From Lentisphaeria bacterium (GTDB lineage: Bacteria; Verrucomicrobiota; Lentisphaeria; Victivallales; UBA1829): a stretch of DNA of 46,887 nt. The translations under genes and the position numbers were made by a program. This document shows positions 19,669 through 43,651 of the stretch, piece by piece (position 1 is the stretch's first letter; the number at the start of each line of letters is the position of its first letter). The notes beneath the pieces are model-generated. The model worked only from the letters and a program-made list of their open reading frames with translations, had not been told where the DNA came from and ran no database searches. Location of the stretch: assembly GCA_017456495.1 (NCBI GenBank), contig JAFTJI010000129.1, positions 1 to 46,887 of the forward strand, read 5' to 3'.

Positions 19669-22600
19669 ATGACAGATATGGAAAAATTCACAATCAAATC
19701 AAGAGAAGCAATGCTGGCTTCCCAGCGGATGGCAACAGAACGGGGCAATTCAGAGATCCGCCCGCTCCATCTTTTGAATGCACTGGTCTCTCAGGAAGAC
19801 GGTTTGATCCCCTCTCTTCTCAAGCGGATGAATGTTGAACTCGGTTCAATCATGCTGGCACTGGAACAGGAACTCGTTAAATTACCATCAGTTTCCGGCG
19901 AAGCAGCTCAGAATCCTTACGCTTCACGGGACTTCAATCAAGTGCTGATCGAAGCATCATCCATCGCTGAACACATGAAAGATGAGTATGTCAGCGTGGA
20001 ACATCTGCTTCTTGCAATCATCGAAAAAGACAGCAAGTGTTCCAAACTTCTTTCCGGTTTCGGAGTCGATAAGAACAGCGTTCTTAACGCGTTGAAGTCA
20101 GTCCGTGGAAATCAGAGAGTGACAAATGACTCACCGGAAACAGCATACGAAGCACTGGAAAAATACGGCAGAGATTTGACTCTGGCAGCGGCGCAGGGGA
20201 AACTTGATCCCGTGATCGGACGGGATGAAGAGATCCGCCGGACGATCCAGATTCTTTCCCGGCGCACAAAAAACAATCCGGTACTCATCGGGGAACCCGG
20301 GGTGGGAAAAACTGCCATTGTGGAAGGATTGGCACGCCGGATCACTGACGGTGATGTACCGGAAGGTCTGAAGAATAAAAAACTTGTTGCTCTCGACATG
20401 GGCGCATTGATCGCCGGGGCAAAGTACCGGGGAGAGTTCGAAGAACGGCTGAAAGCTGTCCTGAACGAAGTTTCCGCTTCTGACGGCAGGATCATTCTCT
20501 TTATTGATGAATTGCATACCGTCGTGGGAGCCGGGGGCGGCAGCGATGGTGCAATGGATGCCGGGAACCTGCTGAAACCCATGCTGGCACGCGGGGAACT
20601 TCACTGCATCGGTGCAACAACGCTTGACGAATACCGGAAATATATTGAAAAAGATGCTGCTCTGGAACGGCGTTTTCAATCGGTTCTCGTTCCGCAGCCC
20701 GGGGTGGAAGATACGATTTCCATTCTGCGGGGATTGAAAGAGCGGTATGAAACCCATCACGGGGTAAAGATCAAAGACTCTGCTCTGGTTGCGGCGGCAA
20801 CGCTTTCTGACAAGTATATCACGGACCGTTTTCTGCCCGATAAAGCAATCGACCTGCTGGATGAAGCGGCAGCAAAACTGCGGACAGAGATCGACTCCTG
20901 TCCGGTGGCGATCGACGAACTCTCCCGGAAACAAATGCGCATGGAAATCGAACTTGCCGCATTGAAAAAAGAGACCGATCCCGCCAGCAAAGCAAGACGT
21001 CAAACTCTGGAGCAGGAACTTGCGGAAGTCAAGGACCGCTGCAGCACTTTGAAAGCAGAATGGGAAGCGGAAAAGAAATCTATTGTTGATCTGCGCGATA
21101 TGCGGGCAAATCTGGAACTTGCCAGAACCAATCTAGCAAAAGCGGAACGGGAATATGATCTGAACCGTGCAGCAGAACTCAAGCACGGGATCATCCCGGG
21201 ATTGGAACGGCAAATCGCAGCAATGGAAGAGAAAATCCACTCCGAAAAGACCACCCGCATGGCAAAGGAAGAGGTCTCCGATGAAGATATCGCGGAAATC
21301 GTCTCCCGCTGGACGAAGATCCCTGTCAGCAAGCTGGTTCAGGGCGAACGGGAAAAATTGCTGACCCTGCCTGAAAAGCTTCATGAACGGGTAATCGGTC
21401 AGGATGAGGCTGTAGATGCCGTTTCCGATGCCGTCCTCCGGGCAAGATCCGGGCTGAAAGATCCAAACCGCCCCATAGCCTCTTTCATCTTTCTCGGCCC
21501 CACCGGAGTGGGAAAGACGGAGCTTGCAAAGGCTTTGGCAGAAGATCTTTTCGATGATGAACGGGCGATCATCCGGATCGACATGTCGGAATACATGGAA
21601 AAACACAGTGTCTCCCGTTTGGTCGGCGCGCCTCCGGGATATATCGGCTATGATGAAGGCGGACAGCTTACAGAAGCGGTGCGGAGACGCCCCTATTCTG
21701 TTGTATTGTTCGACGAAATCGAAAAGGCTCACAGCGATGTGTTCAACATTTTCCTTCAGATCCTTGATGACGGCATGCTGACAGATTCCCGCGGAAGAAC
21801 GGTCAACTTCAAAAACACCATTATCATCATGACCAGCAACCTGGGCAGCGATCTTCTGCTTGAGGCGGCAGGAAAGAAAGGTGATGATGAAAAAATCAGA
21901 GAAAAGATGTCAGCACTGCTGAGATCCCAGTTCCGTCCGGAATTCCTGAACAGAATTGATGAAACGCTGATGTTCCGTGCGCTGACACAGAAAGATATTG
22001 AACAGATCCTTGAGATCCAGATGAAACGGTTTGCATTCCGTCTGAAAGAAATGGGAATCGGTTTGGAACTCACCGCAAAAGCAAAAGCACTGCTGGCGAA
22101 GAAGGGTTATGATCCTGAATTCGGGGCAAGACCTCTGAAGCGGACACTTGTCCGTGAAGTGGAAACGCCGGTATCCAGAATGCTGATTGCCGGGGACCTT
22201 CCGGAAGGTTCTGCATTAAAAATAGATGTTTCCGGTGAAGATTTGCACTTCTCTCGCGTATCATATGTTGAAAAGTTTGCGATCAGAGTGTATATTACCC
22301 GATCATACAGAAAAACAGAAGGAATAATTACAGATATGAGCAAAGAAGAAAAGAATCAGGAAGTCCAGGCAGAAGAAACTGTAAAAGCAGCAGAGGCGGC
22401 GGAAGAACAGAAAGAACAGGTTCCTCCCACGCCGGAACAGCTTCTGGAAGAAGCACGGTTGAAATTGGAAGCTGCAGATAAAAAGTATCTGCTCCTGCTT
22501 GCTGATATGGAAAATCTGCGGAAACGCTGCATGAAAGATATGGAATCCACACGGTATAACACCATGGCAGATACCATTACACCGTTTTTGCAGGTCTTCG

Positions 22601-22911
22601 ACCACTTCGGTATGGCTGTGAAAGCCTCTGAACAGTCAGACAATATGAAGATGCTGCTGGATGGATTGAAGATGATCCGCGGTGAATTTGACAAAGCATT
22701 CCAGGAACTGGGTGTTGAGTGCATTGATGCCGTTGGAAAAGATTTTGACCCCAATGTTCATGAAGCGGTTTCCCAGGAAGCCTCTGATACAGTTCCCGCC
22801 GGAAAAGTGATCCGTCAGTGGAACTGCGGTTATAAAACCGGATCCCGTCTGTTGAAACCTGCGATGGTCGTTGTCAGCTCCGGGAAAGCGGAAGAAGCCG
22901 GCAAGGAATAA
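19669..22911 (+). CDS. clpB: ClpB disaggregase, open in frame into GrpE
   Basis: ATP-dependent Hsp100 disaggregase that works with DnaK/DnaJ/GrpE to rescue aggregated proteins. Order: Clp N-domain (about 1-145), first AAA+ with GEPGVGKT (208-215) and LFIDELHT, coiled-coil middle domain (about 405-530), second AAA+ with GPTGVGKT (610-617) and [11 protein letters not shown]-terminal D2-small domain ending near 862. No stop follows: the frame continues through a 27-residue linker that is plainly a former intergenic region (it encodes a consensus promoter and a ribosome-binding site) into complete GrpE at residue 890. Either a true fusion is made, or a one-base change removed the ClpB stop; TGA occurs at 22269 in an adjacent frame. 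AGGAGG supports the start. Confidence 0.9.
22268..22296 (+). promoter_or_regulatory. Consensus promoter for grpE inside the ClpB-GrpE linker
   Basis: TTGAAA (22268-22273), exact 17-bp spacer and TATATT (22291-22296), about 40 bases before the grpE ATG at 22336. It lies within translated linker sequence, showing that grpE has its own transcription signal. Confidence 0.65.
22336..22911 (+). CDS. grpE: GrpE nucleotide exchange factor
   Basis: 191 residues if started at its own ATG; it is also the C-terminal part of the long ClpB frame. Releases ADP from DnaK. An acidic, glutamate-rich N-terminus is followed by the long coiled-coil helix ([17 protein letters not shown]) and the beta domain with [10 protein letters not shown] and a late [10 protein letters not shown] segment, all GrpE-typical. 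A separate promoter and an AAGGAA site upstream suggest it is also translated independently. dnaJ follows after 26 bases; no dnaK is in the window. Confidence 0.88.
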   Translation: MSKEEKNQEVQAEETVKAAEAAEEQKEQVPPTPEQLLEEARLKLEAADKKYLLLLADMENLRKRCMKDMESTRYNTMADTITPFLQVFDHFGMAVKASEQSDNMKMLLDGLKMIRGEFDKAFQELGVECIDAVGKDFDPNVHEAVSQEASDTVPAGKVIRQWNCGYKTGSRLLKPAMVVVSSGKAEEAGKE

Positions 22912-31805: not shown

Positions 31806-33527
31806 TCAAAACTTGATCTCGTAAGAAATGGTATCAGCAGCCCAGGAATCAGAGGGGAGCTCTTTGAGAGTCCGGGTGATCTGATCAACTTCTCCGGGCA
31901 GGAGTCTGATTTCATCAGCTGTAAGACCTGTCGGGATGTGTGTAAGCGGGGCGGGAGATACGATTCCGTAAACACTTTCAAACCCTGCGGGACCATCCTG
32001 TGTAACCTTACCGTACAGCACGCTTTTGGAGGCAGGGAACTCATATTCTTTTCCAGCTTCAACAAAGATCTGCTGATCATAAGCGTTGGGGACCAGAACG
32101 GCAAAACCACCGCCGGATTCAGAACAGAACAGATGGAAATAACCGGTAACAGGAGAACGGAATTTAAAGCTGATATTTTCTCCGACTTTTACTGCTTTCA
32201 TCTCAATAGTTCCAACGAGAGAAATCGCCCGGGAGGTGAAAGTATTCTCACGTTTCAAAGCAATGGGGTGGATCCGTTTCTGATTGGAGATTACTCTTGC
32301 TGCCTCCGTTCTGCGGGTCTGAATATCACCAACAGTTGCGGTCAACTGATTTTTAAGATCGTCAATGATCTTTACAAGTTCTTCTTCCCGCTTCTTGAAA
32401 TTTTCTTCCAGAGCTGCCTGTGCAGAAGCATTGAATGCCATTCCCTGTTCAACAGCCTGCAATTTTCTGGTGCGGTATTCTTTGCTGAATGCGACTTTAT
32501 TCTTCAATACTTCAAGTTCGTACAATTCTTTTTGCTTCTGGATTTCAAGGATTTCCATATTTTTTGCACGAGCGTCTGCATCAGCTTCTATTGCAAGTTC
32601 TCTTTCCTTGATTTCCAGAGCCATAAGAGCTTTTTTCTGACGGAGAGCCATCCAGATTTCTTCGCGTTCAGCTCTGATTTTGTCGATTTCTTTCTGGACT
32701 TCTTCGTCTGCAGATTCTTTCTGGATCCGCAGTGCGAGTTTTTTCTGTTCTGCAGCGAGGTGGCAGTCCTGTTCCCGCATATTTGCAGCAAACGCGGCAT
32801 CCTTTTCGCTCTGTTCCATTTCCTGAAGAGAGATCCGGTAAGACATTTCAGCCTGCTTCTGCTGAAGTTCCAGAGCCATACGTCTCTGGCTATCTGCCAA
32901 TTCATCGCAGTATTTCTTAAATTCTTTTTCGCTTTCAGAGAGGATCGCTTCGGTATCAGCAAAGGTGATTTCAACGTTCATCCAAGGGAATGCTTTCAGC
33001 ATACAATCTTTTGCCAATGCAAGGATCTGCATGTTCACATTCTGGCTGGAAGAGACTTCGTTATACTTTTCCGGCTGATAAAGCTCCCGTTCAAGACTTG
33101 CAAAAAATTCCTTTTTGCGGTCCGCCAGCTTTGCATCGATTTCTTCTGTGTGCAGTTCAGTTTTTCCGGCAAGCCAGGAGATAAGTTCGGTCATATCCTT
33201 ATTAACATCCAGCCCGGTGACCTTGACACCAAGAGTTGTCAGAAGAGGCTTCGGGGAATCCTGATGACGAAGTGTTCCGTCAAATGTCAGATCAAACGCC
33301 CGGGGAGAAATATAATATCCGCCTTTCCAAACAGTCTCATTTTTATCTTTGAAGAAAAACATTTTTTTCTTCAATTCAGCTTCATCCCTGGGAACCATCG
33401 GAGCAAAGAATGATTTTCCGCTCTCGTAGTTGTTGACAAGAACCCAGATGTGATCTTCAGCGTGCGGATCCTGCTGTTTGACGAATTCGAAATCCGCTGC
33501 TGTTTCAATTTTTTTGATAAAAAGCAT
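31806..33527 (-). CDS. Coiled-coil protein with C-terminal DUF4384 domain
   Basis: 573 residues, last gene of the cluster. An N-terminal globular domain (about 1-170) ends in a region ISPRAFDLTFDGTLRHQDSP...VTGLD that recalls SPFH/band-7 domains, but weakly. A long charged coiled coil runs from about 200 to 415. The C-terminal domain (about 450-540) has SPVTGYFHLFCSESGG, VPNAYDQQ, AGKEYEFP and GFESVYGIVSP, the DUF4384 pattern (small beta domain usually outside the cytoplasm). No TM helix or signal peptide is seen. The plan resembles membrane scaffold proteins, which fits a membrane-remodelling cluster. Shares the minus-strand unit with DUF1294 (gap 17). Confidence 0.8.
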   Translation of the reverse strand: MLFIKKIETAADFEFVKQQDPHAEDHIWVLVNNYESGKSFFAPMVPRDEAELKKKMFFFKDKNETVWKGGYYISPRAFDLTFDGTLRHQDSPKPLLTTLGVKVTGLDVNKDMTELISWLAGKTELHTEEIDAKLADRKKEFFASLERELYQPEKYNEVSSSQNVNMQILALAKDCMLKAFPWMNVEITFADTEAILSESEKEFKKYCDELADSQRRMALELQQKQAEMSYRISLQEMEQSEKDAAFAANMREQDCHLAAEQKKLALRIQKESADEEVQKEIDKIRAEREEIWMALRQKKALMALEIKERELAIEADADARAKNMEILEIQKQKELYELEVLKNKVAFSKEYRTRKLQAVEQGMAFNASAQAALEENFKKREEELVKIIDDLKNQLTATVGDIQTRRTEAARVISNQKRIHPIALKRENTFTSRAISLVGTIEMKAVKVGENISFKFRSPVTGYFHLFCSESGGGFAVLVPNAYDQQIFVEAGKEYEFPASKSVLYGKVTQDGPAGFESVYGIVSPAPLTHIPTGLTADEIRLLPGEVDQITRTLKELPSDSWAADTISYEIKF

Positions 33528-33854: not shown

Positions 33855-34790
33855 TTAAGATTCCAGTTTCAAAGCAAAACACATGATGAAGTAATTGTAG
33901 ATGAATGCAATTACAGATGCTGCAATGAACATAACAACACTCCAACCGGAGTCGAAAGTTGCTCCGACCATGAAGAAAGCAAGAATCGCACCGATCAATG
34001 TATAGAGTGTAAGAATACTCGCATTAAGTCCGTTGGAATGCTTTGCCACCATCGTGCGAAGGAAGGAAATCGTCATAATGGGAAGCAGCAGGACCGCCAG
34101 AACAAAAATCAGGAATCTGATGTACCAGGGAACTTCCTGAGTCGCCTCAGCTACCGGAGCCATTGTCTCAGAAACATCCTCCACAACCTCAGCAACCTTT
34201 GCAGGTGCTTTCCTGGAGGTATCTTCATCCAGTGTCCCTTCACAAATAATATCACCGGTCTTGATATCAACGATCTGCCAGGAACCTTTCAGAATCACGC
34301 CGCCTTCGAAAGACTCGTATTTTTCAATGGTTCCCCACAAAACGCCTTCAGCATCCCGTCCTTTAACAGCATTCAAAGCTGTGAGCTTGGAAGAATATCC
34401 TTCTTCACGGATGCCCATTTTCTTTCTGAACTTTTCCGGAAGAGTCATATCATCCAAAGTCAGAATGCCGGATGAATTCAACTTATCACGCAGGGTATCG
34501 GTGACAAATCCCGTAGAGTCATTTGCAAAGTGCAGAAGAATGACTCGTCTCGTTTCACCGCGCTGTGTCCGGATCTGCTCAGTGATCTTATCAACAGACT
34601 TGATCGCAATATCCTGCCGTTTTTTATTCGGCATAACTTTTTCCGGACCATAATGATTCCAGAGAACAGCGGCGAGAAAAACCAATATTATCAGCCAGCC
34701 TGCCAATGAAAAAAGGTTCGTTACCAACTTGAAAATGATTTTAAACAAGCCTTTTCTGTTCGTGCTTTTTTCTTTTTCTTCATCACTCAT
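33855..34790 (-). CDS. CsgG/LpoB-like membrane protein
   Basis: 311 residues. A lysine-rich cytoplasmic start, one TM helix (about 26-45), then a domain (about 60-200) with RRVILLHFANDSTGFVTDTL and GVLWGTIEKYE, which resembles the CsgG/LpoB-type alpha/beta domain found at the inner face of the outer membrane or in periplasmic regulators. Three C-terminal TM helices (about 223-245, 260-280, 285-305) follow, making it an inner-membrane protein with one periplasmic domain. GGAGG precedes the ATG. It is separated from the AAA+ gene by 170 bp containing two hairpins, so expression may be stepped down or separate. Confidence 0.7.
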   Translation of the reverse strand: MSDEEKEKSTNRKGLFKIIFKLVTNLFSLAGWLIILVFLAAVLWNHYGPEKVMPNKKRQDIAIKSVDKITEQIRTQRGETRRVILLHFANDSTGFVTDTLRDKLNSSGILTLDDMTLPEKFRKKMGIREEGYSSKLTALNAVKGRDAEGVLWGTIEKYESFEGGVILKGSWQIVDIKTGDIICEGTLDEDTSRKAPAKVAEVVEDVSETMAPVAEATQEVPWYIRFLIFVLAVLLLPIMTISFLRTMVAKHSNGLNASILTLYTLIGAILAFFMVGATFDSGWSVVMFIAASVIAFIYNYFIMCFALKLES

Positions 34791-34960: not shown

Positions 34961-37900
34961 TCACGGAATGCACTGAAGGAAATTCTCCTCCGTCAACTTG
35001 TAACGGGCAGGACCATCCCCTGTTTTTTCCAGAAGGATCCTGAACCGTTCCAGAGTGGCAGGATGAGAAATATCCGAATCAACAGGAATATCCCTGTCAG
35101 CTCCGCCGAGCGCGCAATCTGCCACAAAGGAGAGCGCAGCCCCAAGCGTAAGAACTTCTCTGAGAGCCGGATCCTGGATTCCATTGACCACATCCACTGC
35201 AAATTCATCCGCAGAACGTTCCATATTCCGGGCGTAAGCGGAGCCTGTTCCGATCTTGAAGATATCGCCGTAAACGATATGTCCGAGTTCGTGAGCAATG
35301 GTGATCGCTGTCATCGCACAGGCGAGAGCCTTGATATTTTCATATTCCGACGGCTGAGAGAAAAGCTCGTACTTTGCATCAAGCTCTTTCATGCTGCTCT
35401 CATCGAAACCGCCGCCGTTCCGGCAGAGAATCTCGTTGACACTCACGAGGAACTCTCTGACCTTTTCAGGATGATCCAGAGTCAATGCAGGATTGTACTT
35501 CTTGTAAAATGCTGCAAAGGTGAAGTTGACCAGGTTCAGCCCTTCGTACAAGACAATTGCCGGACGGAGAGGATCTTCCTCAAGAACAGGATCGTGGATC
35601 CCGTATCTTTCAAGAACATTGCTGATCACTGTCGCATACGCATTGAAATTGTTGCTGTCATCATATTCATCGTTGTACATAAAGAAGACTTTGTCGGAAA
35701 AATGCTTGTAGTCAGGAGTATTCTGAATTGTTGCAGATGAGAAAACCATATCTTTGACTGCAACAGCATCAGGAGAAGCAATGGTCACTTCCTGAGTTTC
35801 GCCTTCATCATTGACCGGACTGACAATGCGGATGGAATACATTTCCTTGAACTTACGGATCTCTTCGATCCGGGAAGAATCTCTGACAGAACTCGGTGTA
35901 ACACTTGCCAACGCACTCTCGAAATCTTTCCAGCAGAGCGGTTCAACAATGTCCTTTTCTCTCGGATCCTGCTTGATCCGGTCAACCCATCTCCGGCTGG
36001 CAAAGGTACGGGCAAGATTGCAAACACCCCCGCCCTTTTCCTTGTGGAAGATCTCTGCACAGCTGTAGCCTTCTGTCAGATCTGCAAGTTTATCAATATC
36101 AACATCATCTGCAATGCTGTTCTCGGCAATGGCGGAAAGGATGATCTCTTTCCGGGTTTCCTTGTCAGGAAGACCGACATAGACAGACGCACTGATTCTT
36201 CCGCTGCGGAGCAACGCACCGTCAATCATCCAGGGACGGTTTGTTGCGATCAGAACAAAGACTTTGCTGCCGCCGTTTTTCTTCAATCCATCCAGCTCTG
36301 TCAGGAACTGGGAGACACCGTAAGCCTTGGAGCTGCCGGGACGGGAGAGGATCTCTTCGCAGTCATCCAGGAACAATACACAGCCATGAGGACATGTGCG
36401 TGCTCTTGAGAACAGCTGGGAAATCATCTGAACAGTCTGAAGAGGAGTCTTTCCGCGAACTTCTGAAAGTGTTACAGGAATAAACTCGGTGCGAAGCTCA
36501 TTTGCAATTGCTCTGCCGAACATGGTCTTTCCGGTCCCCGGCGGACCATACAGGAGCAATCCGGTTCCGGGAATAACCCCAAGCGTATTGTAAACTTCCG
36601 GATAAAGGATCGGATTGATAAGAGAATCGTAAACAGCCTCTTTCGCTTCTTTCAACCCTTTGATATCATCCAGTGTAACACCGTTTTTCTTCACTGCCGG
36701 TGCAGGCTTCGGTGCAGGTGCTGCAGGGGGCTTCGGCGCAGGTGCTGCAGGGGGCTTCGGCGCAGATGCCGGCGCAGGAGATGCAACTGCCGGATCCTGC
36801 GCTTTCGGCTGCTCCGGCGCAGGTGCCGGAGCAGGTGCAGCAGGTTTAATTATTTTTTTTTTATCCCGTGTGATCCCGATGCTTTCTTCCCATTCGGCAA
36901 TCTTCTGGGAAGTTTCTGCACTGCAGGAGGGGATCGCCTTAGCTCTGGCCTCTGTAAAGAGAGCTTTTGTATAACGGTCAAGATTTTTGTCGAACGCCAT
37001 CTGTTTTGCATTCATAAGAATACCGGTGACATCTGCACCGTTGAATCCATCAGTAGCATCTGCAAGGTATTCAATTGCATCCTGATCAACAGGATAGTCA
37101 ATAGACTTTACAGAATTTGTGATGATCTTCTTTCTTGCCTCACGGTCAGGAAGACCGACATATGCCTTGACGTCAAACCGGTTTGTGCGGAGGAACGCTT
37201 CGTCAACCATCCAGGGATTGTTTGTTGCGCCCATCAGCAGAATCGGATTGCTGTTTTCGGAATTAACACCATCCAGCTCCTGAAGCAGCACAGAAATCAC
37301 TTTCTGAGTTGTTTCATGAACATTGTCATCACGCCGCCGGAAAATAGTTTCCAATTCGTCAATGAAAACAACGGAAAGAGGATTCTTTCTGGCATCTGCA
37401 AAGATCGCACGGATATTGTTTTCAGATTCCCCGACATATTTTCCGAAGACATCAGCAGAAGTAATGGCATAGAAAGGAAGATTCAGCTCTCCCGCCACTG
37501 CCTTGGCAATGAAAGTCTTTCCGGTTCCCGGCGGACCGTAAAGCAAAATTCCGCCGCCGACACGGATACCGTGTTTCTTAGCTTCTTCCGGACGTTTCAG
37601 AGGCTCGATCATGCGCAGACGGATCTGCTCTTTGACATCTTCCATCCCTGCAACATCATCAAGACGAACGCTGGGACGTTCCATAGCCTGAACCTTGGAT
37701 TCTGCCGGAGCTTCTTCTCCATTGCCGGAAACTTTTTCCGGTGTCTTCACATTCGCTTTTCCGATTCTCGGTTTGATCTCCTTTTCCGCAAGGTCAAGGA
37801 GATCGTTACCATTCTGGATATATGCCTGACGCAGAACGCCATCGCACTGTTCCGCTAAAGCAAAAGCATACCGGGCAGCTTCATTAGTGTGATAGAAGGC

Positions 37901-37981
37901 TTTGGAATAGTCCCTCTTCTGCACAGCCTTTGCAGCTTCTGCTTCGTGCTCATTTTTTTTCTGAAAATTAAAACTGCTCAT
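34961..37981 (-). CDS. MIT-like / Vps4-like AAA+ / AAA+ / M48-like metalloprotease fusion
   Basis: 1006 residues, the core of the cluster. Residues 1-70: a three-helix segment (AVQKRDYSKAFYHTNEAARY, LLDLAEKEIK) with the pattern of MIT domains that bind ESCRT-III tails. 105-345: AAA+ module very like Vps4/katanin: GPPGTGKT (149-156), pore loop GKYVGESE (180-187), Walker B VVFIDE (204-209), GATNNPW. 378-432: Pro/Ala linker. 435-690: second AAA+ with GPPGTGKT (479-486); its Walker B reads VLFLDD (535-540), Asp for the catalytic Glu. 890-985: metalloprotease with HELGH (897-901), E921/D925 and SHP near 972, the M48 (HtpX/Oma1) arrangement. No TM helix is seen. AGGA lies upstream of the ATG; 13 bases after the ESCRT-III-like gene. 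Confidence 0.9.
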   Translation of the reverse strand: MSSFNFQKKNEHEAEAAKAVQKRDYSKAFYHTNEAARYAFALAEQCDGVLRQAYIQNGNDLLDLAEKEIKPRIGKANVKTPEKVSGNGEEAPAESKVQAMERPSVRLDDVAGMEDVKEQIRLRMIEPLKRPEEAKKHGIRVGGGILLYGPPGTGKTFIAKAVAGELNLPFYAITSADVFGKYVGESENNIRAIFADARKNPLSVVFIDELETIFRRRDDNVHETTQKVISVLLQELDGVNSENSNPILLMGATNNPWMVDEAFLRTNRFDVKAYVGLPDREARKKIITNSVKSIDYPVDQDAIEYLADATDGFNGADVTGILMNAKQMAFDKNLDRYTKALFTEARAKAIPSCSAETSQKIAEWEESIGITRDKKKIIKPAAPAPAPAPEQPKAQDPAVASPAPASAPKPPAAPAPKPPAAPAPKPAPAVKKNGVTLDDIKGLKEAKEAVYDSLINPILYPEVYNTLGVIPGTGLLLYGPPGTGKTMFGRAIANELRTEFIPVTLSEVRGKTPLQTVQMISQLFSRARTCPHGCVLFLDDCEEILSRPGSSKAYGVSQFLTELDGLKKNGGSKVFVLIATNRPWMIDGALLRSGRISASVYVGLPDKETRKEIILSAIAENSIADDVDIDKLADLTEGYSCAEIFHKEKGGGVCNLARTFASRRWVDRIKQDPREKDIVEPLCWKDFESALASVTPSSVRDSSRIEEIRKFKEMYSIRIVSPVNDEGETQEVTIASPDAVAVKDMVFSSATIQNTPDYKHFSDKVFFMYNDEYDDSNNFNAYATVISNVLERYGIHDPVLEEDPLRPAIVLYEGLNLVNFTFAAFYKKYNPALTLDHPEKVREFLVSVNEILCRNGGGFDESSMKELDAKYELFSQPSEYENIKALACAMTAITIAHELGHIVYGDIFKIGTGSAYARNMERSADEFAVDVVNGIQDPALREVLTLGAALSFVADCALGGADRDIPVDSDISHPATLERFRILLEKTGDGPARYKLTEENFLQCIP
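36717..36764. repeat. Perfect 24-bp tandem duplication in the Pro/Ala linker
   Basis: Two identical 24-base units (36717-36740 and 36741-36764) encode one extra turn of the Ala-Pro-Lys-Pro linker between the two AAA+ modules. Such repeats change length easily by slippage, so linker length may vary between strains. Confidence 0.85.
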
Positions 37982-37994
37982 GATTCAGTCCTGT

Positions 37995-38663
37995 TTACTG
38001 CTGGTCCTTGAGATTCTTCTTGATTCTTTCCAGTCCTTCATTGATGGCGGAACTGCCCTGGCTTACGGGGCTGGCGTTATCGCCTGCAGGAGTTGATGTA
38101 AAACCACCGGCAATTTCTCCGGCAGCTTCTGTTTCCAGCGCATTCATCAGGTTTTCATCAAACTCTGCATCTGCGAGAGATTCGGACTCACGGTCAAGCT
38201 GAGCCATGTTCTTTTCAAAGGCTTTGTCCATGGTCTTGTTGATTTCATTGATATCAGCGGATGCAATATCAATGTTTTCAAGACTGTCTGCAATAAAATC
38301 AGAAGAAATGCCCATTCCGGCAGCCATTTCGCCGAGAGCTCCCATTGCAATCTGCATATCTCTTGCACCGGTAATCATATCAAGCTGGTGCTGGACAAAA
38401 GATTTCTGACGGTCAAGTCGGGAAAGCATAATATCTTTTGATTTGTACATTTTCAGAAGACGGGCTGCTTCATTTTTCTGACCGCTCTGGAGCTTCATCT
38501 TAGCATTTTTCCAAATTTTCTCGCGCTCACGCTCCATATCTCTGATTTTGTCAGAAAGGTTATCGACCACACGTTCAACAGCACGTTCCACTTTTCTTGC
38601 TTGCTGACGTTTTCTTCTTTCTGCAGATTCTCTTGATTCAAACAAATTGCTCCAAAATCCCAT
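37995..38663 (-). CDS. ESCRT-III (Snf7/Vps2)-like protein 1
   Basis: 222 residues, almost all helix. An amphipathic start MGFWSNLFES; a basic first helix (11-57); a hairpin tip SGQKNEAARLL (60-70) matching the GQxxxAxxxxK tip of eukaryotic ESCRT-III; a second helix (70-98); then ARDMQIAMGALGEMAAGMG (100-118), like the 'SMAQAMKGVTKAMG' stretch of Vps2/CHMP2. Helix 4 (120-150) follows, then an acidic segment EFDENLMNALETEAAGEI (167-184), a flexible tail, and a terminal LERIKKNLK (211-219) resembling the MIT-interacting motif. Family members polymerise on membranes and are disassembled by Vps4. The gene lies 13 bases before the MIT-AAA+ gene. Homology is inferred by eye. Confidence 0.78.
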   Translation of the reverse strand: MGFWSNLFESRESAERRKRQQARKVERAVERVVDNLSDKIRDMEREREKIWKNAKMKLQSGQKNEAARLLKMYKSKDIMLSRLDRQKSFVQHQLDMITGARDMQIAMGALGEMAAGMGISSDFIADSLENIDIASADINEINKTMDKAFEKNMAQLDRESESLADAEFDENLMNALETEAAGEIAGGFTSTPAGDNASPVSQGSSAINEGLERIKKNLKDQQ

Positions 38664-38689: not shown

Positions 38690-39316
38690 TTAATTATCTA
38701 ATTTCTGTCTGATATTATTTTCTGTTTTAGAACCGACTCCATTACCGGAACCGGCAACATATCCCATATCACCGGCGACCTCAGCTTCCAAAACTGCCAT
38801 CAGATCATCATCGCCATCTATGTATGCAGACTGCTCTTCATACATTCTTGCCTGCTTTTCCTCATCTTTCAACATCACGCGATCCACAGTTTTATTCAAA
38901 TCGGAGACGACCGATGAAGTATCTTCAATTGTATCCATTGTATCCGTCATTGCATTCGGATCAAGGTTCGCAGCTTTAGCCATACCTTCCAAAGCTTTTG
39001 CAGCTTGAGTCATCTCCGCTGCGACTTGGATATCTGTCTGTTTCGTTTGAATAAATGATACCTGTCTGCTCAAACGGGCAAGCATCACTTCTTTCGCTTT
39101 ATACTGCTGCAGCAAACGGGCAGCATCCTGTTTCAATCCTTGTGCAGCCTTCATTTTTGCAGCCTGCCAAAGCTTAGATTTTTCTTTCTCCAGAGCATCG
39201 ATTCTATCTGAAAGTTTATCCACGCTTTTGTCAACAGCACGCTCATTACTACGCACAGTAGCCTGCTGCTCTCGCTCGATGTCTTTCGACGATTTCAAAA
39301 AGTCAAACCATCCCAT
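38690..39316 (-). CDS. ESCRT-III (Snf7/Vps2)-like protein 2
   Basis: 208 residues, a diverged paralogue of protein 1 with the same order: amphipathic MGWFDFLKSS, basic helix, tip AAQGLKQDAARLLQQYKAKE (57-76), second helix, MTQAAKALEGMAKAAN (102-117), helix 4 with VSDLNKTVDRVM, acidic DDDLMAVLEAEVAGDM (169-184), and a short tail ending NNIRQKLDN. I prefer ATG 39316 over GTG 39322 because AAGGAA is then properly spaced and the N-terminus matches the paralogues. Two different subunits in tandem recall the hetero-polymers of ESCRT-III. Gap of 26 bases to protein 1. Confidence 0.75.
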   Translation of the reverse strand: MGWFDFLKSSKDIEREQQATVRSNERAVDKSVDKLSDRIDALEKEKSKLWQAAKMKAAQGLKQDAARLLQQYKAKEVMLARLSRQVSFIQTKQTDIQVAAEMTQAAKALEGMAKAANLDPNAMTDTMDTIEDTSSVVSDLNKTVDRVMLKDEEKQARMYEEQSAYIDGDDDLMAVLEAEVAGDMGYVAGSGNGVGSKTENNIRQKLDN

Positions 39317-39389
39317 TTTCACATTTCCTTATTTTAATTGTTGATCTTGTTCTGTCTAAGGAGATACGAATCAGACAAAAATCTGACAC

Positions 39390-39959
39390 TTAAATTTCAG
39401 AAAGTTCATCTTTTTTTTCTGCGTGCTCAATTCCGAGCGCAGAATCCATCTGCTTACCGAGCAAATCATCCTCAGAAGAAACAACTCCGAAGTCGGGTTC
39501 GCTATCATCATCTCCCTCAATGGAAATACCACGAAGTTGATCCCCGGCTTTTCTTTGATCACGCACATCTCGGGACAAATTATCCCTGTCTTCTGCAGCA
39601 ATCTCCAATTTGTCAATCATATCCGGATTCTCCAGATGTTGAAGCTGCAGATATGCATTGTGAATAAGAGTTGTAAGATCCTTAAGATCTTTAGAAACAA
39701 GCTGTTCCTTTTCCTTCATCAGCTCCAATTGCTGAAGCAACGGTTTGATTTTTGCAGCAAGAATCGTTTTTTCTGCACCGTGCGCACTGTCATATTCAGG
39801 ACGAAGGACTTTTATCTGAGCTTCCAAATCACGGATTTTAGCAATAAAGCCATCCAATTGCAAATCCAGAGAAGCTTTCCGGTTCTCATAATTTGCAATA
39901 TCTTTTTCCAGCCGCCTCTTTTCGCCTGCGGCCCCATCAAATAAATCAAACAATCCCAT
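39390..39959 (-). CDS. Charged helical protein, second-pair paralogue A
   Basis: 189 residues. It shares the short amphipathic start (MGLFDLFDG) with the ESCRT-III-like pair, then a long helix, and the block LEAQIKVLRPEYDSAHGAEK followed by AAKIKPLLQQLELMKEKE, which is a helical hairpin with a tip at about AHGAEKTI (59-66). An acidic C-terminal third follows. It is clearly paralogous to the next gene upstream (same block nearly unchanged). It could be a more remote ESCRT-III-type or PspA-like subunit, or an accessory coiled-coil protein; I cannot decide by eye. Confidence 0.75.
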   Translation of the reverse strand: MGLFDLFDGAAGEKRRLEKDIANYENRKASLDLQLDGFIAKIRDLEAQIKVLRPEYDSAHGAEKTILAAKIKPLLQQLELMKEKEQLVSKDLKDLTTLIHNAYLQLQHLENPDMIDKLEIAAEDRDNLSRDVRDQRKAGDQLRGISIEGDDDSEPDFGVVSSEDDLLGKQMDSALGIEHAEKKDELSEI

Positions 39960-39989: not shown

Positions 39990-40577
39990 TCATGCCTCTT
40001 CCGGTACATCTTTCTTCTTTTCTTCATCCATGGATTTGAAATAATTATCAATATCACTCACATCTGCGGAAGAGTCCGATATAGAGAAATCAGGACTTTC
40101 ATTTTCCTCTCCCGGCAATTTAACTGACTCCAGTTTTTCTGCTTCCCTGGACTGTTCCCGCATATCATAAACAATATCCTTCTTCTTGTCAATCGTATTT
40201 TTAAGATCTTCTATGATATCAGGATTCTGCAGCTGCTGAAGCTGCAGTTCATCCGTATGAATAATATCTGTAAGATTTTTGATATTCAGAGAAGTCAGCC
40301 TTTCCTTCTCCTTCATCTGCTCCAATTCCTGAAGCAAAGGCTTGATCTTGGCTGAAATAATATTTTTTTCTGCTCCGTGAGCACTTTCATATTCGGGACG
40401 AAGGACTTTGATCTGAGCTTCCAGATTTCTGATTCTCTTGATATAAAGATCCAGCTCACGATTAAGATTGCGTCTGCTTTCCTCGTTTGCAGCGATCTTT
40501 TTTCTCAATTTTTTCTCTTCAGAGTCTATCAAGCCAAGCCCCGTCATCAAGTTATAAAGCCAATCAGGAATCACCAT
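39990..40577 (-). CDS. Charged helical protein, second-pair paralogue B
   Basis: 195 residues. N-terminus MVIPDWLYNLMTGLGLID is hydrophobic/amphipathic and could touch the membrane. Then come a basic helix and LEAQIKVLRPEYESAHGAEK, with AKIKPLLQELEQMKEKERL, nearly identical to paralogue A, and an acidic tail ending in a lysine-glutamate cluster. Conservation is concentrated in the hairpin, as if that is the assembly surface. GGAGG lies upstream. Gap of 16 bases after the papain-like protease gene and 30 before paralogue A. Confidence 0.75.
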   Translation of the reverse strand: MVIPDWLYNLMTGLGLIDSEEKKLRKKIAANEESRRNLNRELDLYIKRIRNLEAQIKVLRPEYESAHGAEKNIISAKIKPLLQELEQMKEKERLTSLNIKNLTDIIHTDELQLQQLQNPDIIEDLKNTIDKKKDIVYDMREQSREAEKLESVKLPGEENESPDFSISDSSADVSDIDNYFKSMDEEKKKDVPEEA

Positions 40578-40593: not shown

Positions 40594-42366
40594 TTATTTT
40601 ATCCGTTCATATCTGAAACTCTGCCATGCCTGATTTCTCTTGTAGCCTACAATTACAGAAATCACACCAACAATATAACCGATCTCTTTTTTGAGAGAAA
40701 GTGTGACCATGGCTATCACCAGGACAGTAGGGATCAGCCACAAAATCAGCTCCAGGAGCTGTCTTTTTGAAGCATGACCATACCGTTTCTTCTTTTTATA
40801 TCCGGCAGGAATATTCCATGTTGGCGGAATAATATTTCCTGCTTTATTCTTTGCATATTCTCCGCTGCTGAAAATCAGATCCAATGCGGATTCGACCTGC
40901 CGGTCATACAAACCTCTTCCATCCACAGCCCCGAGGGATTCCCGGATCGTATCTTTGTTGATAACACCGGATCCAACCCAGTTATCCAATTTGTTCTTGA
41001 TCGGAATATAATAGCTTCCGGGCAGAAGGTGTGAGAAAAACTCCTGAGTGATCCAGCCGCATTCTGCTTTCGGCAGATGGAACAGCCAAGCACCATCTTC
41101 CCCGGGTTCACAAAGGAAAAGTGCAGGATCACAGGATGAAGAACATCCATCCGCAAATTTTCCGGAAGTGCCGACCGTGAAAATCGTATAACGCGCCGGA
41201 ACTCTGCAGCTTCTGGAATAAACATCATTGTAATAGTGCAGAAGCTGATCCACATCATTCATATCAACCTGTTTTCCATCATTGCGATAAAGAAATGCAC
41301 TTACCAGATGATAGTAAGCACTGCCTTGTATCTGGATCCGGAAAATCTTTACTTCATTGTATAAATGTTTGATACCTTTCTGTTCAAGATACTTCCGGAA
41401 ACCCTCCGGATTCCGGTGATTCTCAGCCTGATTGAAACAGGATGTTTTCACATTCCAGAAAGCCCCGATATTTTTGGGAAACGGAAGACGGATCCCGGGA
41501 TATGAATACTCCCCATCCATCATATTTTTCTTCTGGGATGTAAAAAAGTCATTCTTATCAGCTGTCGCCTTTGCCGGAAGACCGGGCACTTTCACGTCCA
41601 CTTTTTCGTCGACAGGAGCTTCTTTTACAGTCTCATTATTCCCGGAATCTGTTGCGATTTCAGGCTCTTCAACTTCAGAAGATCCAGCCTCAGCAACAAA
41701 ACGTCCGGCACTGTAGGCATACTCCTCAATATATTCAAACGGGATCTTGATATCATTCATACTGCCCCAGCTGTTCTGAACATAAAAATATCCCTTGGAC
41801 TCCATCCCGGGGGTATCTTTCCATCCATAGATCAGCATTGCATGATATCCGTTTTCTGCATCAAAAGGTGTCGTCGGCAGTTTTGCCCATCCCGGTTCAT
41901 CAAATGTGGTGGAAAACACTTTACAGCCGACAACGATCGGAGAGGGACGCTTCCCATCAGCACCGCTCAAGACACTCTTATACTCATCAATTCCGCGGGG
42001 CGGATTGGTCTTGAGCATCTGGAATTCAACATTTTCAAAGCGGATCGGATTCAAGGAATGCAATACTTCCGCTACCGTCTGATTTTCATGTCCGCCGCGA
42101 TTACGGTTGTAAGGCCATTCCGAATAACGGCAAACACCATATTCTTTCACACTGCTGAACACTCTTGCTATATCGCACCCTTCCGTATCATTATCCAAAT
42201 GGCAGATTGCATAAAGATGCTGGGGACTCAGTCTTTCTTTGAAGTCAAGATAATATTCCAGCATTGCAACAGTGCTGAATGCAGCACAGGTTCCCCGTTC
42301 TCCCTGATCTGTTTTCCGGGGAAACCCTTTTAACCGATATTCTGTAGACTCACTGAAAATGTTCAT
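40594..42366 (-). CDS. Papain-like cysteine protease with C-terminal membrane helices
   Basis: 590 residues. The N-terminal C1-type peptidase (about 10-220) has Cys27 in DQGERGTCAAFS, His175 in NGYHAMLIYGW and Asn198 in YFYVQNSWGS, so the catalytic triad is complete. A serine/threonine- and acid-rich linker (about 225-275) leads to a second domain of unknown type (about 280-520). Two hydrophobic helices near the end (about 535-555 and 560-577) put the protease on the membrane. No signal peptide or pro-domain is seen, so it is probably cytoplasmic-facing. Its ATG overlaps the anti-sigma-like stop (ATGA). A role in cleaving the regulator or a cluster component is an inference. Confidence 0.85.
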   Translation of the reverse strand: MNIFSESTEYRLKGFPRKTDQGERGTCAAFSTVAMLEYYLDFKERLSPQHLYAICHLDNDTEGCDIARVFSSVKEYGVCRYSEWPYNRNRGGHENQTVAEVLHSLNPIRFENVEFQMLKTNPPRGIDEYKSVLSGADGKRPSPIVVGCKVFSTTFDEPGWAKLPTTPFDAENGYHAMLIYGWKDTPGMESKGYFYVQNSWGSMNDIKIPFEYIEEYAYSAGRFVAEAGSSEVEEPEIATDSGNNETVKEAPVDEKVDVKVPGLPAKATADKNDFFTSQKKNMMDGEYSYPGIRLPFPKNIGAFWNVKTSCFNQAENHRNPEGFRKYLEQKGIKHLYNEVKIFRIQIQGSAYYHLVSAFLYRNDGKQVDMNDVDQLLHYYNDVYSRSCRVPARYTIFTVGTSGKFADGCSSSCDPALFLCEPGEDGAWLFHLPKAECGWITQEFFSHLLPGSYYIPIKNKLDNWVGSGVINKDTIRESLGAVDGRGLYDRQVESALDLIFSSGEYAKNKAGNIIPPTWNIPAGYKKKKRYGHASKRQLLELILWLIPTVLVIAMVTLSLKKEIGYIVGVISVIVGYKRNQAWQSFRYERIK

Positions 42367-43079
42367 GAAAATGACTCCGGTAAGAATTTGATTGTACCTG
42401 ACACTGCACCGCCGTCAGGGAAACGGACCCCGATAGAAGCACACTGGCGATCATTCTGGAAATCCTTAAACGGAATAGAGACCCGACCCATTACGATGGC
42501 GAACTCTTTTCCCAGGAATAACAATGTTCCGCGGGATAAATTTGCTCCGGACTTATCCTGAACAGTCATCGTAATCATTGCAGATTCTGACACCATCATC
42601 GGGAAAGCCATCTGACTCTTCCAGTAATAGGCGGAATCATTCGGTACTTCCGATTCGAATGTGATGGTCGAAAGTGACCCGGAAATCGGCATAGCAGGAG
42701 CTGCCAGAGGACTTGAAGCTGCAAACGAAACCTTCTTTGAGGAGAATGACACCTGAGCATTCTGCGTCGTTAACTGATTCATGCTGAGGAAGGGAAGCCC
42801 CTTCTTCACCTGTTCCTGGAGCTTTACAGCAGTGCTGCTGATAAAATTCTGGAATTTCTTCCAAACACTGTTTCTTGCAAAGAGAGCTGCTGTTGCATCT
42901 TTCGCCAACTGTTTATCTCCCGGTAACGGCTCCGGATTCTCAGAACACGTTTCCAACGCCAGCTCATAATTCTGCCGGCACTCGGAACAATGGAAAATAT
43001 GATTCATCACTTCAAAATTTTCTTCCCTTGCAGGGTCCATAACAAAAGCAGCAATCTGTTCAAAACTCAAACACTTCAT
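42363..43079 (-). CDS. Zinc-finger anti-sigma-like protein
   Basis: 238 residues. The N-terminal 45 residues hold H27-x3-C31-x2-C34 (HIFHCSEC), the zinc anti-sigma (ZAS) signature. A lysine-containing helix and linker follow, then a beta-rich C-terminal domain (about 140-238) with a GRVSIPFKDFQ segment. No transmembrane helix is visible, so unlike most ECF anti-sigmas it looks soluble; release would need ligand sensing, redox or proteolysis. ATGA overlaps with both neighbours: the sigma gene upstream and the protease gene downstream. Confidence 0.8.
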   Translation of the reverse strand: MKCLSFEQIAAFVMDPAREENFEVMNHIFHCSECRQNYELALETCSENPEPLPGDKQLAKDATAALFARNSVWKKFQNFISSTAVKLQEQVKKGLPFLSMNQLTTQNAQVSFSSKKVSFAASSPLAAPAMPISGSLSTITFESEVPNDSAYYWKSQMAFPMMVSESAMITMTVQDKSGANLSRGTLLFLGKEFAIVMGRVSIPFKDFQNDRQCASIGVRFPDGGAVSGTIKFLPESFS

Positions 43080-43651
43080 CTTGCACCGCCTTCCATTTCC
43101 CGAAGTAAATTAACCATATCTTCTTTTGCACGTTTATAAATCTGATCCACATTGCTTTCTGTAAGCCCCAACATGGCAGAGATCTGCTTCGTCGGCAGAT
43201 CATAATATTTTTTCAACTGATAAACATACGCTCTCATGGGATTCAACCTCCATAATTTAGAAAAACTTTTCTCCACGACTTCCCAAACTTCTGTGTTGTC
43301 GCTAATGTAGACGTTATCAGTTTCATTTTCTGACACCGGATTTTCATTTTTTTTGCAATATTCTAAAATAATCTTCTTAACATATATACGCATCCAGAAA
43401 AAAAGAGGACAGCCCGCCGCATATTTTTTCAAGGTTTTCTTGTACACCATCTCCTCGTAAAGCATTGCATAAATAGTAATTTCATTCAGATCCCGATCCT
43501 TCATGATCGTATAATAAGACGATCCATTCTTTGTACGGCTTCTGAGAACAGGAAGAACGACCTCCTCATATACAGCTGTCCATTTCTCTTCGGATTCTGC
43601 TAAAAGAGCTTCGGCAAATTGCAGTTCCTCTTCAACGCTATAATCAATCAT
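43076..43651 (-). CDS. ECF-type RNA polymerase sigma factor
   Basis: 191 residues. Region 2-like helices (about 15-105, ending in FFWMRIYVKKIILEYCKK) and a region 4 helix-turn-helix (about 125-185) containing LKKYYDLPTKQISAMLGLTESNVDQIYKRAKEDM in pieces. It lacks a recognisable sigma region 3. First gene of the cluster, coupled to the zinc-finger anti-sigma-like gene, so the cluster is probably switched on by a specific signal and may be autoregulated. AGGGG lies upstream of the ATG. Confidence 0.87.
   Translation of the reverse strand: MIDYSVEEELQFAEALLAESEEKWTAVYEEVVLPVLRSRTKNGSSYYTIMKDRDLNEITIYAMLYEEMVYKKTLKKYAAGCPLFFWMRIYVKKIILEYCKKNENPVSENETDNVYISDNTEVWEVVEKSFSKLWRLNPMRAYVYQLKKYYDLPTKQISAMLGLTESNVDQIYKRAKEDMVNLLREMEGGAR

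Follow-up and report, generated by a model that had tools for sequence, protein, structure and literature searches.

Membrane-cutting systems that combine ESCRT-III with the ATPase Vps4 (CdvB and CdvC) are known from archaea and eukaryotes (Makarova et al.), and a published survey found systems having both components to be confined to these two groups. For bacteria, the available portion of Ravi et al. 2024 (PMC11237479) describes members of the PspA/Snf7 superfamily, some of them near AAA+ genes, and reports Vps4-like genes in some bacteria, with Snf7 displaced by a TPR/6TM gene beside the bacterial Vps4; no MIT-Vps4/Snf7/M48 operon or fusion is described in that portion. In Sulfolobus, destruction of an ESCRT-III subunit is part of the cycle, CdvB being degraded by PAN/proteasome (PMC12909875); there, removal by Vps4 and destruction by the proteasome are the work of separate machines, whereas the protein considered here would hold both functions in one chain.

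The window analysed is the whole 46,887-nucleotide stretch of contig JAFTJI010000129.1 from a Lentisphaeria bacterium (assembly GCA_017456495.1). As in the ESCRT-III/Vps4 (CdvB/CdvC) systems, Snf7-family proteins with hydrophobic N-termini are encoded together with a classical AAA+ ATPase bearing a predicted MIT fold. The present system differs in being bacterial, in having a tandem AAA protein with a degenerate second ring and a fused protease, and in its sigma/anti-sigma genes. In FtsH, too, a single chain carries an AAA+ domain and, after it, a zinc protease with HExGH, but the focal protein is M48-like rather than M41, has no clear membrane helices, and carries an MIT domain and two AAA domains. 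With the M48 proteases (Ste24/ZMPSTE24, HtpX, Oma1-type), whose folds are the closest by VIA-align, it shares HExxH, the downstream E...D, NA(F/Y)A and HP..ER; unlike them, the domain is not an integral membrane protein, is fused to AAA+, and scores below the Pfam M48 cut-off.

Operon and Snf7 proteins

The focal gene (34961..37981; minus strand, as for all genes in this paragraph) is the eighth of a tightly packed operon, in which genes overlap by 4 bp or are separated by gaps of 13-67 bp. Upstream lie genes for an ECF-type sigma factor (43076..43651; Pfam Sigma70_r4_2 8.4e-7; NCBIfam sigma70-ECF 1.9e-7, below cut-off) and, overlapping it by 4 bp, a zinc-binding anti-sigma-like protein (42363..43079), whose HX3CX2C pattern (HIFHCSEC) is also found in five relatives. 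These are followed by a papain-like (C1) peptidase with a C-terminal membrane helix at residues 540-558 (40594..42366; Pfam Peptidase_C1 2.7e-10) and by two coiled-coil paralogues, cc1 (195 aa; 39990..40577) and cc2 (189 aa; 39390..39959), the latter of no known family and not matched by a bacterial Snf7 profile. The two genes immediately upstream of the focal gene encode ESCRT-III (Snf7) proteins A (210 aa; 38690..39322) and B (222 aa; 37995..38663). On the downstream side, one gene (33855..34790) encodes a membrane protein for which four membrane segments are predicted and which is conserved beside the Vps4-like gene; another (31806..33527; Pfam DUF4384 6.7e-13) encodes a coiled-coil DUF4384 protein whose downstream position is conserved in the cluster.

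The window also encodes bacterial ClpB, SmpB, CoaD, citrate synthase, SerC and AroE, all above curated cut-offs, and the contig is therefore bacterial; its gene content suggests Verrucomicrobiota/Lentisphaeria. At 19669-22911 (+), ClpB (aa 7-861) and GrpE (aa 891-1070) share one open frame, followed by DnaJ; the intervening segment resembles an untranslated spacer, so the ClpB stop codon may have been lost, or the sequence may be in error.

The gene setting is stronger evidence than the focal protein alone, and its most important feature, the neighbouring ESCRT-III genes, was absent from an earlier sequence-only reading of this DNA. That reading had proposed a polymer subunit as substrate, an idea that now gains support from the two Snf7 genes directly upstream. 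Both Snf7 proteins pass the Pfam Snf7 cut-off of 27.3 bits (31.1 for A, 28.6 for B). A profile of 23 bacterial Snf7 proteins searched against the PDB matched yeast SNF7 (1.5e-10), an Asgard ESCRT-III protein (4e-4) and CHMP2A (0.04), and no PspA/Vipp1 chain up to E = 1; profile search thus places the operon proteins nearer to Snf7/CHMP than to PspA/Vipp1.

The spread of these genes was analysed in 338 genomes of the same phylum, with 14 named genomes as controls. A Vps4-like match with E of 1e-45 or better was found in 16 of the 338. An independent Pfam Snf7 search matched 12, and 11 of these were among the 16, with Snf7 within a few kb of the Vps4-like gene (hypergeometric P about 4e-16, not corrected for shared ancestry). 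Among the controls, Snf7 was detected in Sulfolobus only, and the whole focal protein gave a single remote AAA match in the named genomes. Operons that encode ESCRT-III together with Vps4 in bacteria would make the machine's origin an open question once more, or else show large horizontal transfer, and would provide a simple setting in which to study it.

Domains of the fusion protein

The focal reading frame runs uninterrupted from an ATG at 37981 to a stop at 34961 and encodes a chain of 1006 aa, in the order MIT-like three-helix bundle, AAA+, Pro/Ala linker, AAA+ and M48-like zinc protease. This architecture had been proposed from the sequence alone, and it is borne out by Pfam AAA, which matches both AAA domains (6e-70 in total), by the motifs and by predicted folds. 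AAA1 (aa 99-365; 36887..37687) has a Walker A motif at 149-156, the pore loop KYVGES at 181-186, the Walker B Glu209 and GATNNPW at 251-257. It is separated by the Pro/Ala-rich linker (about aa 376-430; 36692..36856) from AAA2 (aa 432-712; 35846..36688), whose Walker A lies at 479-486. The M48-like domain (about aa 736-1006; 34964..35776) contains HELGH at 897-901 (Glu898; codons 35279-35293), E921 and D925 within RNMERSADEFA, and SHPATLERF at 972-980. KYVGES, GATNNPW, Glu209, HELGH, E921/D925 and the SHP motif stand where the earlier reading had placed them; an M48-type FNAYA at 779-783 is an addition to it. Its statement that membrane helices are lacking also holds, as no clear helix is predicted in the chain and the single borderline segment (943-961) lies within the protease fold.

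The N-terminal region had also been described as MIT-like. No Pfam family recognises residues 1-90, and a 20-row N-terminal profile searched against the PDB gave no MIT match. AlphaFold2, run on 20 aligned N-termini (aa 1-80), predicted a three-helix bundle (aa 4-76; 37754..37972) with pLDDT of 83 and helices at 4-21, 25-45 and 49-76, in agreement with that description. The first-ranked Foldseek match was the SKD1/Vps4B MIT domain, with probability 1.00 but E of 0.1, and VIA-align superposed the model on the human, yeast and Sulfolobus Vps4 MIT domains with Z of about 10-11.7. Helical bundles may reach such Z values by chance, and the assignment therefore rests on the make-up of the PDB match list, which is dominated by Vps4 and katanin MIT domains. 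For a helical bundle, a Z of about 11 is supportive of an MIT domain, not proof of one.

The Walker A, Walker B and pore-loop motifs of AAA1 are all intact. AAA2 has RGKTPLQ in place of KYVGES and a Walker B DD in place of DE; the second AAA domains of tandem proteins in genomes G284 and G290 carry equivalent degenerate changes, and single-AAA relatives of AAA2 in G008 and G218 retain KYVGES and DE. AAA1 is therefore probably the motor of the focal protein. The second AAA+ domain of the earlier reading is thus present after its linker, but is probably not a working unfoldase. The same reading had placed AAA1 very close to Vps4/katanin, in the meiotic clade; this placement is not supported, as the CdvC model is equalled or outscored by those of CDC48 and PAN, and the top PDB matches are p97/VAT.

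In a tree of AAA domains, AAA1 falls in a group that includes single-AAA proteins from G284 and G301, and AAA2 in one with the AAA domains of Vps4-like proteins from G008, G218, G460 and G466. The tandem therefore unites two older paralogous Vps4-like lineages, to which the focal lineage added a protease. Two other origins were considered and rejected: recent duplication of one AAA domain within the focal protein, since its two AAA domains cluster with different single-AAA paralogues, and descent from FtsH, since the AAA domains of FtsH cluster apart from both, with full support. We use the term Vps4-like rather than Vps4, because the focal protein has two AAA domains in place of the single one expected of Vps4/CdvC (joined in eukaryotes by a C-terminal Vps4 beta insertion), and because Vps4_C is absent from the complete Pfam list of the single-AAA relative in G219.

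The model of the C-terminal domain (pLDDT 81, pTM 0.83) gave no Foldseek match below E of 0.9. When the Foldseek candidates were superposed with VIA-align, the four best were all M48 proteases (3c37, Z 9.5; Ste24p, 7.5; ZMPSTE24, 6.7 and 6.6), with the next at 4.3, consistent with the gluzincin fold expected for this domain. A profile of the protease family searched against the PDB gave seven weak matches, six of which were HtpX, Ste24 and other M48 proteins. The focal domain scores 17.7 bits with Pfam M48, below the cut-off of 20.3, for which reason we call it M48-like and do not claim full membership; two stand-alone homologues exceed the cut-off (21.6 and 23.6 bits). The zinc ligands held up across the family: HExxH and the downstream Glu are invariant in 15 relatives, as are the downstream Asp, the NA pair and H..ER. 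Retention of all these motifs at about 20% identity argues for selection on activity.

Stand-alone genes for this protease adjoin Snf7/Vps4/SPFH genes in sister genomes, and the focal protein thus joins parts that are neighbours elsewhere. Apart from the focal protein, the protease turned up in only two clusters of this kind among the 338 phylum genomes; the plasmid records searched with it gave no match.

Proposed mechanism

The evidence best supports a model in which envelope stress induces an ESCRT-III system: docking by MIT on Snf7 filaments and extraction by AAA1 would lead to destruction of the subunits by the protease. On balance we favour the reading that a bacterial membrane-remodelling system of ESCRT-III/Vps4-like type uses the focal protein as its disassembly motor, and that this motor has gained a protease at its exit side. 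Judging from the type of genes, envelope stress would free the sigma factor from the zinc-binding anti-sigma protein, switching on the operon. The two Snf7 proteins, perhaps together with the two coiled-coil proteins, would use their hydrophobic N-termini to assemble into filaments at the inner membrane. The predicted MIT domain would then dock the hexamer onto the filament tails, followed by passage of subunits through the pore of AAA1, whose motifs are intact, with the degenerate AAA2 serving mainly as a structural ring. Finally, cleavage of the extracted subunits by the M48-like domain would make disassembly irreversible. Classical Vps4 recycles ESCRT-III subunits; a Vps4-like motor of this kind may instead destroy the subunits it pulls out, and the fusion makes the fate of motor-removed subunits, recycled or destroyed, directly testable.

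The main rival to this model accepts the localisation but not the threading: the MIT-AAA-AAA portion would merely bring the M48-like domain to membrane ESCRT-III polymers, where it would cut membrane proteins, the anti-sigma protein or the coiled-coil proteins. Tethering may be enough, since the stand-alone protease homologues need no fused AAA and several carry a membrane helix of their own; moreover, AAA2, the ring beside the protease, has lost its pore-loop motif. Against this, AAA1 retains all the motifs of an active unfoldase, and the protease sits C-terminal to the AAA rings, the order along the chain also seen in FtsH. We therefore consider tethering appreciably less probable than extraction coupled to degradation.

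A further step is to place the protein in a new AAA+ protease class of its own: an ESCRT-III disassembly motor that threads subunits straight into the M48-type protease fused to it, as part of a bacterial ESCRT-III/Vps4 stress system not described before. We put this forward tentatively, as a proposal with somewhat less than even chances. In the journal literature open to search, no AAA-M48 fusion involving Vps4 or FtsH came up.

Related clusters in the phylum

Clusters of the same type in other genomes contain relatives of every part of the focal protein (the MIT domain, AAA1, AAA2 and the protease), which argues that the architecture did not arise by chance. The same operon occurs in the family-mate G008, where it encodes a single MIT-AAA protein of 400 aa without a protease. 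A second cluster type (L065 4738-15432; L068 5660-15803) combines genes for an SPFH zinc-ribbon protein, an FHA protein, Snf7, a Vps4-like ATPase, LpoB-like and lipoprotein-like proteins and a stand-alone M48-like protease, together with a Ser/Thr kinase at L065. SPFH proteins occur in some archaeal ESCRT loci as well.

Several other arrangements were observed. L057 (G284:C5; 8680-18089) holds four Snf7 genes, one tandem MIT-AAA-AAA gene and one single MIT-AAA gene, amounting to two ESCRT-like sets side by side. In G460 and G466 (L110 6721-8112; L112 13299-14849), a Snf7-like N-terminal segment, matching the bacterial Snf7 profile at about 1e-16, is fused to a Vps4-like AAA domain. At L070 (7634-12781), which belongs to a distant family within the phylum, a Snf7 gene adjoins genes for a 1110-aa two-AAA protein and a separate 370-aa AAA protein.

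A search for the same architecture in these genomes thus recovered its parts in sister clusters, but the exact four-part fusion was found in the focal genome alone among those searched. The absence of a second example, and the origin of the first in a single draft assembly of 233 contigs, might suggest that the join arose in assembly or is a single non-functional event. However, the fusion lies in one open frame, it preserves its catalytic motifs at an identity of about 20%, and gene order on either flank matches that of the relatives, with Snf7 upstream and the membrane-protein and DUF4384 genes downstream. To make a chimera, the syntenic operon would have to contain two junctions; assembly error is therefore unlikely, and we consider an artefactual or non-functional join highly improbable.

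The proteases of these clusters bear on a different reading, in which the cluster serves cell death or defence: its caspase-like, papain-like and M48-like proteases would be triggered at the membrane, and the ESCRT part would act as sensor or executioner. Caspase (C14) genes are present in the same cluster of G008, G218 and G181, the distribution is patchy, and G393 (L117 8322-10829) encodes an 835-aa caspase (C14) and M48-like fusion beside Snf7 and Vps4-like genes. Nevertheless, a search with a defence library gave only generic AAA similarity to IetA, Snf7 protein A had no match in 50,697 phage records, and sigma/anti-sigma control together with the SPFH, kinase and LpoB-like neighbours fits envelope stress equally well. 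A role in defence is accordingly judged unlikely, more so than tethering.

Finally, G008 encodes a 998-aa protein (L033 5033-8029) with an FtsH-like C-terminal AAA domain, a metalloprotease-like segment with HEAGH and, in its large N-terminal part, a further P-loop; the protein looks like a separate, unusual AAA protease.
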